64,000 nucleotides of DNA from an uncultured Pelagibacteraceae bacterium. Its GTDB lineage: Bacteria; Pseudomonadota; Alphaproteobacteria; Pelagibacterales; Pelagibacteraceae. Location of the stretch: the NCBI GenBank assembly GCA_902561585.1, contig CACEQK010000001.1:1-64000 (forward strand), given 5' to 3'. Within the stretch, counting starts at the first letter, position 1. Each line of letters opens with the position of its first letter. Shown here in pieces: positions 58,913-62,777 of this stretch. The translations under genes and the position numbers were made by a program. The notes under the pieces are model-generated. The model worked only from the letters and a program-made list of their open reading frames with translations. It searched no databases and was not told where the DNA came from.

Positions 58913-59809
58913 TTAATTCCTGCCAAATCCAGGTTTATCCGTATCTTGTCCAGCTTCAATAATCTCTTTTCTCACTTTTTTTGTCGATGAGAATATTTCT
59001 AGAAGTTTTTTACTGTCCTTATTTTTAATAGCGTTTTTAATTTCCTCTAGATTTTTAGAGTAATTATCTAATACTTTTAAAATATTTTCACTATTATCAA
59101 TAAAAATATCTTTCCACATTAATGGGTCTGATGCAGCTATTCTTGTAAAATCTCTTAACCCACCAGCGCTGTATTGAATAACGTCATTTTTAAATTTGTC
59201 TTCATTATTAATTGCTGTTTTGACAATACTGTAAGCTACTGCATGTGGTAAATGACTTGTAAGTGATAAAATATAATCATGATCTTCAAATGACATTAGT
59301 TTTACTTTACTTCCAAGACTAGACCAAAACTTTTCTAGTTCATTAATTTTGTCTTTATTAACTTTTTTATCTGCAGATAAAATACACCATCTATTGTTAA
59401 ATAAACTTGAAAAACCAGCTTCTGGTCCACTGTACTCAGTTCCTGCTATAGGATGTGAAGCAATCCAATTAACATTTTTAAGATTTAAGTTGCTAATAAT
59501 TTTATTTACTTCTTTTTTAGCAGAGCCTGTATCAGTTAAAATCACATTTTCTTTCAAATTAGAATGAATAGAAAGAAGTATTTCTTTGTAACTACTTAGT
59601 GGAGAAGAAATAATTACTAGATCAGAGTCTCTAACTACATCTGAGATATTATTATTTATTTCAACTGAAAAGTTCTTTTTTAAATATTCAGTTACTTTTG
59701 AAGACTTATCATAAACACTTATTTTAGATGCTAATTTTTTTTCGTTTACAGATCTTAAGATTGAAGAACCGATTAAACCACAACCAATTATACTAATCTT
59801 ACTAAACAT
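58913..59809 (-). CDS. tyrA: Prephenate/arogenate dehydrogenase
   Basis: This is an oxidative decarboxylase in tyrosine biosynthesis. The N-terminal Rossmann motif is IIGCGLIGSSILRSV, followed by VILTDTGSAKKEV, NWIASHPIAGTEYSGPEAG (catalytic His) and LTSHLPHAVAYSIV. At 298 residues it is the compact TyrC-like cyclohexadienyl/arogenate dehydrogenase type without chorismate mutase or ACT domain. It overlaps hisC by eight bases; a HisC-TyrA pair suggests the aminotransferase also serves aromatic amino acids. Confidence 0.92.
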   Translation of the reverse strand: MFSKISIIGCGLIGSSILRSVNEKKLASKISVYDKSSKVTEYLKKNFSVEINNNISDVVRDSDLVIISSPLSSYKEILLSIHSNLKENVILTDTGSAKKEVNKIISNLNLKNVNWIASHPIAGTEYSGPEAGFSSLFNNRWCILSADKKVNKDKINELEKFWSSLGSKVKLMSFEDHDYILSLTSHLPHAVAYSIVKTAINNEDKFKNDVIQYSAGGLRDFTRIAASDPLMWKDIFIDNSENILKVLDNYSKNLEEIKNAIKNKDSKKLLEIFSSTKKVRKEIIEAGQDTDKPGFGRN

Positions 59810-60884
59810 TTAATATTTTTTTTATTTTAGAAATTAATTTTCTATTTTCTTCACTTTTTCCAATTGTTATCCTAAGTGAATTCTTAATACCATAAACATC
59901 CATTTTACGAACTAAAATTCCTACTTTAGCTAATAATTTAAAAACTCTTGATGAATTAATTTTTACTTTATCAAAATTAACTAATAAAAAATTGCTATAG
60001 CTTCTATTAGTTTCAATTTTCATTTTTCTAAATTCATTAAACATTTTTTTATTCCAATTATTGACGTGTTTAATTTCTTTATTTAACCAAGCACTATCTT
60101 TTACTGCGGCAGATGCGGCAAACAAAGCTGCTTTGTTTACATTAAAAGGTGGCTTAATTTTATTTAACGTATCAATAATTTCTTTTGATCCATACCCCCA
60201 CCCCACTCTCAATCCTGCTAGGCCATAAATTTTTGAAAATGTTCTTGTCATTACCACATTTTTAAAGTTAGAAAATAATTTTAACGCTGAAGAATAATTT
60301 TTTTGTTTTACATATTCAAAATAAGCATCATCAACTACTAACAAAATATTGCTTCGTAGTTTTTTTCGTAAAAACAGCAAATCTTTTTTTGTAACATAGG
60401 TCCCGGTTGGATTATTAGGATTAGCTAAAAATACAACTTTTGTCTTGTTAGTTACTTTTTTTAAAATATCTTTTACTGAAACTGTAAAGTTATTTTCTTT
60501 TGAATAAATAACTTTTGCTCCATTCATTTTGCTATAAATTCTATAAATAATAAAACTATACTTAGGCACAATTACCTCATCACCTTTTTTTAGGTATGCT
60601 TTACAGATTAATTCAAAAATTTGATCTGAACCTGATCCCAAAACAATTCTATTTTTATCTAGTTTAAATTTTTTTGATAAAGTTTCTCTTAAGAAAGTAC
60701 CATTGGTATCGGGATATCTTGCAAAACTTTTTGATACTTTTATATATTCTTTTTTTGCTTTTGGGCTAGGTCCAAGTGCAGATTCATTAGCTGATAATTT
60801 TATCTTTGCTAGTCTATTTTTAAATACGCTCATTCCTGCCACGTATTTTTCAGCTATTATGTTATTTGGTTTAGGTAATCTCAT
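59802..60884 (-). CDS. hisC: Histidinol-phosphate/aromatic aminotransferase
   Basis: This fold-type I PLP aminotransferase belongs to the HisC family. Motifs are LSANESALGPSP, GSGSDQIFELICKAYL, LANPNNPTGTYVTK, VVDDAYFEYV and the Schiff-base Lys in TRTFSKIYGLAGLRVGWG. At 360 residues it is standard. It heads the minus-strand set hisC-tyrA-dehydrogenase and starts 92 bases from the divergent SAM-II riboswitch. In Alphaproteobacteria such enzymes often accept both imidazole-acetol phosphate and aromatic keto acids; which one applies here is uncertain. Confidence 0.93.
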   Translation of the reverse strand: MRLPKPNNIIAEKYVAGMSVFKNRLAKIKLSANESALGPSPKAKKEYIKVSKSFARYPDTNGTFLRETLSKKFKLDKNRIVLGSGSDQIFELICKAYLKKGDEVIVPKYSFIIYRIYSKMNGAKVIYSKENNFTVSVKDILKKVTNKTKVVFLANPNNPTGTYVTKKDLLFLRKKLRSNILLVVDDAYFEYVKQKNYSSALKLFSNFKNVVMTRTFSKIYGLAGLRVGWGYGSKEIIDTLNKIKPPFNVNKAALFAASAAVKDSAWLNKEIKHVNNWNKKMFNEFRKMKIETNRSYSNFLLVNFDKVKINSSRVFKLLAKVGILVRKMDVYGIKNSLRITIGKSEENRKLISKIKKILNV

Positions 60885-60943
60885 TTATTAATGTAATATC
60901 CAAATTGTTAGAGTTTTTCTAGAAGTCTTTATCTTATATAAAA

Positions 60944-60972
60944 TTGACAAGTTTGTGATGATCTAGTAAATA
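60944..60972 (+). promoter_or_regulatory. Candidate promoter of metX-metW
   Basis: A perfect -35 TTGACA is followed after 17 bases by a weak -10 TAAATA. The predicted start would fall within a few bases of the SAM-II aptamer's first stem, which makes the placement plausible. Confidence 0.45.
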
Positions 60973-60976
60973 GATA

Positions 60977-61029
60977 TCGCGCTGATTTAACCATATTGCA
61001 AGCGCATAATAAATTTAGCTAAAAAGGGA
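60977..61029 (+). ncRNA. SAM-II riboswitch
   Basis: The sequence TCGCGCTGATTTAACC...TTGCAAGCGC...TAGCTAAAAAGGGA matches the SAM-II aptamer known from metX/metA leaders in Alphaproteobacteria and from Sargasso Sea DNA. P1 is GCGCT (60979-60983) with AGCGC (61001-61005). The loop can form the H-type pseudoknot with the 3' strand GCTAAAAAGG, which encloses S-adenosylmethionine. It lies directly before an intrinsic terminator and metX. The same 3' strand can pair with the terminator's ascending arm and loop. Confidence 0.95.
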
Positions 61030-61032
61030 GAT

Positions 61033-61058
61033 GCCCAGTTTAGCTGGGCTTTTTTTTT
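61033..61058 (+). terminator. Riboswitch-controlled intrinsic terminator
   Basis: GCCCAG-TTTAG-CTGGGC followed by T9 is a textbook intrinsic terminator only three bases from the SAM-II aptamer and two bases before the metX ATG. AGCTAAA in the aptamer (61017-61023) is complementary to TTTAGCT (61039-61045) in this hairpin, giving a competing antiterminator. Confidence 0.9.
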
Positions 61059-61060
61059 GG

Positions 61061-62200
61061 ATGAATAGAAAAATTGAAGATATAAATAAAATTATAGTAA
61101 AAAAACCACTCAAACTTGATTGTGGTAAAACAATAAATAATTTTCCACTAGCCTATGAGACTTACGGAAAATTAAACGCAAATAAAGATAACGCTATTCT
61201 TGTATTTCATGCTTTGACAGGAGATCAATTTGTAACTGGTACGAACCCTATTACAAATAAAGAGGGTTGGTGGGTCACTGCTGTTGGTCCTGGCAAAGCT
61301 ATTGATACCGATAAATATTTTGTGATTTGCGCAAATGTAATTGGTGGATGTATGGGTTCTCTTGGACCAAAAGATACAAATCCTGAAAACAACCAACCAT
61401 ACGGTTTAGATTTTCCAGTTATCACCATTAAAGATATGGTGAGAGCTCAAGAGTCTTTACTAGAGCACCTTGGTGTAAAAAAACTTTTATGTGCAACTGG
61501 CGGATCTATGGGTGGAATGCAGTTATTGCAGTTTTGTGCAACATTTCCTGATAAAGCTTTTTCGGCTATTCCGATAGCTTGTAGTTCAAGTCATAGTGCT
61601 CAGAATATTGCACTAAACGAGCTAGCACGACAAGCGATTATGGCTGACCCTGTGTGGAATAATGGAAAATATGTCTCAAAAGATGTGCAACCAAAAAATG
61701 GCTTAGCAGTTGCAAGAATGGTTGGGCATATAAGTTATTTGTCTGAAAAAGGTATGCAGGAAAAATTTGGAAGAAAATTACAAGAAAAAGCTGATTATGA
61801 ATTTAGTTTTAATGCAGATTTTCAGGTAGAGAGTTATTTAAGACACCAAGGTTATGCTTTTGTAGAAAGATTTGATGCGAATTCAATTCTTTATATAACT
61901 AGAGCAATGGATTATTTTGATCTTTCTAAGCAATATAAAGATGGGTTAGTTGAAGCTTTTAAAAATCAAAATACAAAATTTCTAGTAATATCATTTTCCT
62001 CTGACTGGCTTTATACAACAAAAGAAAATAAGGATATAGTAATTGCATTAAATGCATCTGGCGCTGATGTTTCCTACTCAGAAATAGTAACAGATAAGGG
62101 ACACGACGCCTTCTTATTAAACGAACCAGAATTTTTAAAAACTCTTAAGGGTTTTATAGACTCAATGTACGAAAAGTTTAAAAATGAAAAAAGAATTTAA
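61061..62200 (+). CDS. metX: Homoserine O-acetyltransferase
   Basis: MetX acylates homoserine with acetyl-CoA (or succinyl-CoA) at the start of methionine synthesis. This alpha/beta hydrolase-fold enzyme shows FHALTGDQFVTG, GSLGPKDTNP, the nucleophile elbow GGSMGGMQLLQ near residue 149, SSDWLYT and the terminal KGHDAFLL with catalytic His. The ORF track begins at 61031, inside the terminator hairpin and without space for a ribosome site. I choose the ATG at 61061 (MNRKIEDINK), giving 379 residues. It overlaps metW by 17 bases. Control is by the SAM-II element upstream. Confidence 0.95.
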   Translation: MNRKIEDINKIIVKKPLKLDCGKTINNFPLAYETYGKLNANKDNAILVFHALTGDQFVTGTNPITNKEGWWVTAVGPGKAIDTDKYFVICANVIGGCMGSLGPKDTNPENNQPYGLDFPVITIKDMVRAQESLLEHLGVKKLLCATGGSMGGMQLLQFCATFPDKAFSAIPIACSSSHSAQNIALNELARQAIMADPVWNNGKYVSKDVQPKNGLAVARMVGHISYLSEKGMQEKFGRKLQEKADYEFSFNADFQVESYLRHQGYAFVERFDANSILYITRAMDYFDLSKQYKDGLVEAFKNQNTKFLVISFSSDWLYTTKENKDIVIALNASGADVSYSEIVTDKGHDAFLLNEPEFLKTLKGFIDSMYEKFKNEKRI

Positions 62201-62777
62201 AGTAATAGCTGAATTGTTGCCTAACAACACGAGAGTATTGGATGTTGGTTGTGGAGATGGATTTCTAATGAATTTCCTTAGAGAAGAAAAAAATATAGAG
62301 GTACGCGGATTGGAACTTAATCAAGAAAATGTGCAACTGTGCATACGTAAAGGATTGCCAGTCATACAAGGAAACGCTGAAACTGAACTTCATCAATTTC
62401 CCAATCAATCTTTTGACTATGTTGTGCTAAGTCAAACATTACAAGCTTTTTATAACCCAGAGAAAGTTTTAAAAAATCTTTTGAGAATAGGTAAAGCAGT
62501 GATTGTCTCAATTCCAAATTTTGGATATTGGAAAGTAAGAATGAAGCTTTTATTTTTTGGAGAAATGCCAGTTACAAAAACATTACCAAATACTTGGTAC
62601 AACACTCCTAACTTACATATGTGCACTATTAAAGATCTATTTAAGTTTTGTGATGAAAAAAATATAAATATCAAACAAGTAGTTGGTGTTAATGAAGATA
62701 AAACTTCATTAATAAAAAAAAGTAATTTAGAAATAAAAAATCTCTTTTCAAAATTAGGGATTTTTTTAATAGGGTAA
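62184..62777 (+). CDS. metW: Methionine biosynthesis protein MetW
   Basis: MetW is a class I SAM-dependent methyltransferase-like protein that is almost always next to metX and is needed for full homoserine acyltransferase activity in several proteobacteria. The SAM-binding motif is RVLDVGCGDGFLMNFL (residues about 18-33), followed by GLELNQENV, FDYVVLSQTLQAFYNPE and SIPNFGYWKVR, the MetW signature. At 197 residues it is complete. It overlaps metX and abuts gloB directly, so all three are probably under the SAM-II switch. Confidence 0.96.
   Translation: MKKEFKVIAELLPNNTRVLDVGCGDGFLMNFLREEKNIEVRGLELNQENVQLCIRKGLPVIQGNAETELHQFPNQSFDYVVLSQTLQAFYNPEKVLKNLLRIGKAVIVSIPNFGYWKVRMKLLFFGEMPVTKTLPNTWYNTPNLHMCTIKDLFKFCDEKNINIKQVVGVNEDKTSLIKKSNLEIKNLFSKLGIFLIG

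Follow-up and report, generated by a model that had tools for sequence, protein, structure and literature searches.

A putative transcriptional SAM-II riboswitch in the metX leader of SAR11 bacteria

In a stretch of 64,000 nucleotides from an uncultured Pelagibacteraceae bacterium (contig CACEQK010000001.1, positions 1 to 64,000; hereafter the window), the leader of metX carries a SAM-II aptamer, and an intrinsic terminator lies between the aptamer and the gene. Judging from comparison with related leaders, it is very likely that this SAM-II riboswitch is an OFF switch on the transcription of metX and metW. The sequences of the elements, the mutual exclusivity of their structures, their conservation and the group-specific match between aptamer strand and terminator arm were observed directly in this analysis. 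The features are listed in Table 1.

Table 1. Features of the metX leader and of the genes behind it in the window
Feature	Position	Strand	Basis
TTGACA, -35-like promoter element	60944..60949	+	invariant, 74/74 distinct metX leaders
TAGTA, core of -10-like element	60964..60968	+	invariant in 74/74 leaders, amid variable sequence
SAM-II aptamer	60977..61028	+	48/52 letters as in crystallised SAM-II RNA; RF00521 25.5 bits
P1 5' strand GCGCT	60979..60983	+	pairs with 61001-61005 in fold
P2 pseudoknot 5' strand CCATATTGC	60991..60999	+	position against crystallised RNA
P1 3' strand AGCGC	61001..61005	+	pairs with 60979-60983 in fold
Antiterminator outer 5' strand AGCTAAA	61017..61023	+	complementary to TTTAGCT 61039-61045
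P2 pseudoknot 3' strand GCTAAAAAGG, also antiterminator 5' strand	61018..61027	+	position against crystallised RNA
AAAAAGGGAG, Shine-Dalgarno-like stretch abutting AUG1	61021..61030	+	sequence
Antiterminator inner strand GGG	61026..61028	+	pairs with CCC 61034-61036
AUG1, in frame with metX	61031..61033	+	AUG at site in 45/74 leaders
Intrinsic terminator GCCCAG-TTTAG-CTGGGC-T9	61033..61058	+	terminator scan; 31/31 leaders found with aptamer-only pattern
Antiterminator inner strand CCC, also terminator 5' arm	61034..61036	+	pairs with GGG 61026-61028
Antiterminator outer 3' strand TTTAGCT	61039..61045	+	terminator loop and start of its 3' arm
metX, homoserine O-acetyltransferase, from AUG2	61061..62200	+	NF001209.0, 511.8 bits, cut-off 331
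metW	62184..62777	+	TIGR02081.1, 234.7 bits; overlaps metX end

The SAM-II aptamer

On the evidence of its sequence, the element before metX is a SAM-II aptamer, as the initial annotation had proposed. Compared with the crystallised "Sargasso Sea metX" RNA, whose sequence is printed in PMC8494917, it has mismatches only at positions 17, 30, 32 and 39 of 52. In addition, the P1 stem and the conserved core (GATTT..., TTGCA and GCTAAA) have the order and spacing seen in SAM-II. RF00521 (SAM_alpha, that is, SAM-II) matched 60969-61043 over the full model (1-79) with E = 4.8e-4 in a 236-base search. The P2 pairing scheme, which we take to be that of 2QWY, was assigned to 60991-60999 and 61018-61027. 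Both P2 strands stand at the expected positions in the alignment to the crystallised RNA, the folding tools having no pseudoknot model. Given the near identity with that RNA, the copy in the window would be expected to bind SAM.

At the Rfam gathering score, no riboswitch match was found in the window, the RF00521 cut-off being 36 bits. The leader that holds the exact crystallised RNA (L009) scored 34.1 bits, which is also below 36. Across the family, 149/197 genomes (for example those of L009 and L010) matched RF00521 at E <= 0.05, and 0/197 reached the gathering score. Since even the exact crystallised RNA stays below 36 bits, the Rfam threshold fails for SAR11; and because it fails across the family, the score of 25.5 bits is no argument against SAM-II membership. 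The other weak Rfam matches (E > 0.2) were taken as chance.

Genes and promoter

The genes metX and metW lie directly 3' of the aptamer, which is the context of methionine or SAM genes expected of SAM-II, and they presumably form one operon. The gene to the left of the leader (59802-60884) is on the opposite strand to metX. Thus, the terminator serves no upstream gene, and the end of an upstream gene or operon was ruled out as an explanation for it.

The positions of the TTGACA and TAGTA elements suggest that transcription starts close to P1. A start near P1 was likewise described for SAM-II by Corbino et al. (PMC1273637). A strict promoter scan did not pick up TTGACA at 60944-60949.

Terminator and antiterminator

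The terminator scan of 60850-61200 (351 bases) gave one site, and shuffled sequences gave 0.1 (sd 0.4). All of the strings on which the initial annotation had built its model, namely AGCTAAA, TTTAGCT, GGG, CCC and the terminator, were recovered at their positions, and the ten-pair antiterminator that it had drawn from them proved to be the minimum-energy fold of 61017-61049. This fold has -11.7 kcal/mol and makes up 64% of the ensemble, with z = -1.75 only against shuffles, 12/200 of which fold as well. The terminator has -10.8 kcal/mol, so the advantage of the antiterminator is small (-0.9), as computed without the pseudoknot and without a moving polymerase. The antiterminator exceeded the terminator in stability, at least by a little, in 55/74 metX leaders, 31/31 tandem-type leaders and 52/53 other leaders, and simple folding does not favour it in 19/74 metX leaders.

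The antiterminator overlaps with the P2 strand, which ends at 61027, and with the terminator, which begins at 61033. This strand overlap, together with the comparative data, supports the earlier proposal that the antiterminator would exclude both the pseudoknot and the terminator, with OFF logic. Furthermore, the match of the terminator arm to the aptamer strand beats that of composition-shuffled arms (mean z -3.5, 26 distinct metX pairs). Among the seven terminator-like hairpins of the 64 kb window, which were the only background used, the metX terminator ranked first in complementarity to the aptamer strand.

The weak fold z-score, the small energy difference and the leaders in which the antiterminator is not favoured could also speak for an uncontrolled attenuator, in which a terminator that is always on, and is not under the control of the aptamer, reduces metX expression or yields a small RNA. 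Sinorhizobium meliloti metA would be a precedent, as no SAM-II-driven antiterminator is predictable there (PMC9373788). However, the terminator loop is conserved, the match to the aptamer strand is group-specific, and the same complementarity is found behind tandem-type SAM-II leaders despite a different stem. We therefore regard an uncontrolled attenuator as improbable.

Proposed mechanism

The preferred reading, an OFF switch on transcription, would involve two competing RNA states, one with the pseudoknot and the terminator (OFF) and the other with the antiterminator (ON). When SAM is scarce, the free P2 3' strand AGCUAAA..GGG would pair with CCC and UUUAGCU to form the antiterminator, RNA polymerase would read through, and MetX would be translated from AUG 61061. 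With abundant SAM, GCUAAAAAGG would be locked into the P2 pseudoknot, GCCCAG-UUUAG-CUGGGC would fold, and transcription would end in the U9 tract. We infer this direction of switching, and termination in the cell, from the elements described here. The GGG/CCC pairs would nucleate first, and AGCUAAA/UUUAGCU would zip up as it emerges. The metX antiterminator takes the terminator loop and part of the 3' arm, and from the 5' arm CCC only. Because the loop and 3' arm are captured with so little of the 5' arm, the time window would be short and the timing must be tight.

Conservation across metX leaders

The aptamer-only pattern matched 69/169 genomes of the genus, and all 31 distinct leaders found with it have the terminator. 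Looser aptamer patterns were used because a strict one failed to detect many relatives, and the counts of leaders cover both strands. The terminator pattern occurred once per genome in 45/61 genus genomes. For the comparison of positions, we used 74 distinct metX-type leaders, a set chosen for having a GCCCAG-TTTAG-CTGGGC-type terminator. Averaged over positions, the commonest letter in this set had a share of 100% in the -35 region, 93% in the aptamer, 74% in the linker, 98% in the terminator 5' arm, 97% in the loop, 99.5% in the 3' arm and 80% at the start of metX.

The GCTAAA of the P2 3' strand was invariant in 74/74 leaders, and the antiterminator core pairs (61018-61021 / 61041-61044) were formed in 74/74. 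The outer antiterminator pairs and some GGG/CCC pairs were lost in part of the leaders, with 82-97% kept; the three GGG/CCC pairs were kept in 82, 100 and 89% of them. No two-sided compensatory change in AGCTAAA/TTTAGCT was found among the 74 metX leaders. Both strands hardly vary in them, and the classical covariation test is thus silent, not positive. GCTAAA is also the ligand-binding strand of SAM-II, so it cannot vary. For a terminator, a U tract behind a stem is all that is required. A loop that stays constant, and a stem without even compensated changes, would fit a second duty of the terminator. The covariation of AGCTAAA/TTTAGCT that the initial annotation had looked to is therefore absent within the near-invariant metX leaders, and matching is seen only between riboswitch groups.

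Matching between aptamer strands and terminators

Three flanks follow GCTAAA on the 3' side: the metX leaders have AAGGG, the tandem-type leaders GCG, and most of the remaining alphaproteobacteria GGTCGG. The terminators of the three groups are GCCCAGTTTAGCTGGGC, CCACCGCTTTAGCYGGTGG and CCCTGACC...GGTCGGGG, respectively. For the metX aptamer strands, the duplex energy was -10.1 with their own arms, compared with -8.0 with tandem-type arms and -5.9 with arms of the other alphaproteobacteria. For the tandem-type aptamer strands it was -12.9 with their own arms, compared with -7.3 and -4.5 with the arms of the other groups. In 52 other alphaproteobacterial leaders, the native pairs were better than random re-pairings, 39/10000 of which reached them, relatedness being uncontrolled. 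Of the sequence evidence for a putative wiring of the terminator to the aptamer, this group-level matching is the strongest. Moreover, when the same simple criterion was applied to a class-wide sample, 53/82 distinct SAM-II leaders had a terminator, and this shows the putative wiring of aptamer to terminator to be general for SAM-II.

Ribosome site and start codon

AAAAAGGGAG adjoins the ATG at 61031 with zero spacer. This ATG and the ATG at 61061 are in the same frame; AUG1 is missing in 29/74 leaders, whereas AUG2, beyond the hairpin, is invariant in 74/74. AUG1 is probably not the real metX start. The Shine-Dalgarno-like stretch in P2 is therefore not at working distance from the conserved start, as it should be in a translational SAM-II. 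The initial annotation was right that this ribosome site is badly placed, as it abuts AUG1 and has the hairpin between it and AUG2. In the window (61050-61063), AUG2 follows U9GG without a Shine-Dalgarno sequence of its own, and the same is seen in most of the 74 leaders.

These positions bear on two translational explanations. The first is a translational switch only, in which initiation is blocked because P2, closed by SAM, covers the AAAAAGGGAG ribosome site, the hairpin being secondary. The purine-rich stretch does lie inside P2, and a review (PMC10907184) illustrates ribosome-site occlusion with the metX SAM-II RNA (2QWY). However, the missing spacer at AUG1, the loss of AUG1 in so many leaders as against the invariant AUG2 behind the hairpin, and the conserved terminator in between all argue against it, and we regard it as highly improbable.

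The second is a dual switch, in which SAM controls termination and the same strand, reaching across the folded hairpin, acts as a distant Shine-Dalgarno sequence for AUG2. The elements of S. meliloti metA stand in the same order, and this leader uses AUG2 and needs the distant Shine-Dalgarno sequence (PMC9373788), and AUG2 of metX, following U9GG, has no other. By this parallel, a second, translational layer in the metX leader is possible. Nevertheless, P2 already holds the GG constant, and its conservation is thus no sign of a ribosome role; relatives with reduced Gs exist; and the metX leaders of another genus are without the Shine-Dalgarno-like stretch. The dual switch thus seems rather unlikely to us, though less so than the purely translational one.

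Other SAM-II layouts in relatives

The metX leaders of another genus (g4; for example L037, L021 and L116) have a SAM-II aptamer without a terminator hairpin. In these leaders, GCTAAA-nnnG is followed directly by T6-9 and then by CTCACAATTC or a close variant, which is complementary to the TGAATTGCGAG of the aptamer itself, and CAATTC occurs in 36/36 of them. In the computed fold, the ligand-free RNA is one long hairpin that takes in the aptamer and the U tract. By its predicted structure, this is a different SAM-II platform.

In addition, nine low-scoring RF00521 matches (L063, L066, L068, L086, L090, L091, L125, L127 and L146) have a different layout, AGTCCTGATTTAGA...TACTTGCTGGGACTTTAAACA(C/A)AACGCTAAAGGAGGCAAATG, in which GCTAAAGGAGG immediately precedes an ATG. 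They resemble translational elements, of the SAM-V type or another, in front of a different gene.

Comparison with known SAM-II systems

Putative terminators behind many SAM-II elements were reported by Corbino et al. in 2005 (PMC1273637), and SAM-II with an intrinsic terminator platform in alphaproteobacteria was described by Barrick and Breaker in 2007. The termination mechanism is thus not new. A paper on SAR11 (PMC5069961) listed the SAM-II elements of bhmT and metX as transcriptional, without showing how, and a 2022 study (PMC9373788) stated that no earlier work had addressed how SAM-II affects gene expression. With these early reports and the 53 terminator-bearing leaders counted above, the initial annotation's view of SAM-II as mainly translational does not hold. 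Its description of the metX leader as a transcriptional exception within a translational class also has to be given up, as a terminator is common behind SAM-II. Very probably, the metX leader is ordinary for its class and another SAM-II attenuator.

The alphaproteobacterial SAM-II elements with a terminator (RF00521) resemble the metX leader in the aptamer, the gene family, the terminator between P2 and the gene, and the OFF logic, and their P2 3' strand likewise doubles as the antiterminator strand. The pairing differs: SAR11 metX uses GCUAAA/UUUAGC and GGG/CCC with the loop as partner, whereas the other alphaproteobacteria use GGUCGG/CCGACC with the terminator 5' arm. Unlike theirs, the linker of the SAR11 metX leaders is just 5 bases.

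The tandem SAM-II/SAM-V arrangement of the 'Candidatus Pelagibacter ubique' type (bhmT) has SAM-II followed by an intrinsic terminator, like metX (PMC9481103). A further likeness to the metX leader is its loop GCUUUAGC, which is complementary to GCUAAAGC. However, the terminator stem is different, and no second SAM aptamer was found in the metX leader. In tandem-type leaders (for example L002, L026 and L046), the terminator CCACCGCTTTAGCYGGTGG-T9 contains GCTTTAGC; this is perfectly complementary to the aptamer's GCTAAAGC, and the pairing gives a 9-pair antiterminator. These leaders also have a second conserved block 3' of the SAM-II terminator, which, following the literature, is probably SAM-V.

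The SAM-II leader of S. meliloti metA has a Shine-Dalgarno sequence in P2, AUG1, a terminator and an in-frame AUG2 in the same order as here, and there AUG2 is used and the Shine-Dalgarno sequence acts at a distance (PMC9373788). The difference is that no SAM-II-driven antiterminator is predictable for metA, whereas in SAR11 metX one is present and conserved.

The crystallised metX RNA

Two genomes (AG-914-J05 and AG-918-M15) contain the identical crystallised 52-mer and, immediately behind it, the same terminator. The literature treats 2QWY, which is like the aptamer of the window in 48/52 letters, as a case of ribosome-site occlusion: it is the example of that mechanism in PMC10907184, and PMC9373788 states that the crystallised metX RNA 'probably regulates translation'. 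In the openly accessible literature, we found no mention of the terminator behind the 2QWY RNA, which may have been noted before. In our opinion, the 2QWY metX RNA is probably a transcription attenuator in its native setting, its 'Shine-Dalgarno' strand being the antiterminator strand and the adjoining start codon being unused.

Thus, the leader of the best-studied SAM-II RNA, which is treated as the model for direct ribosome-site occlusion, is of the same type as the metX leader of the window. If termination is the true mechanism, the competing antiterminator and the brief time window during transcription ought to be taken into account in studies of the ligand-free state, and the example of ribosome-site occlusion given in reviews would need correction.
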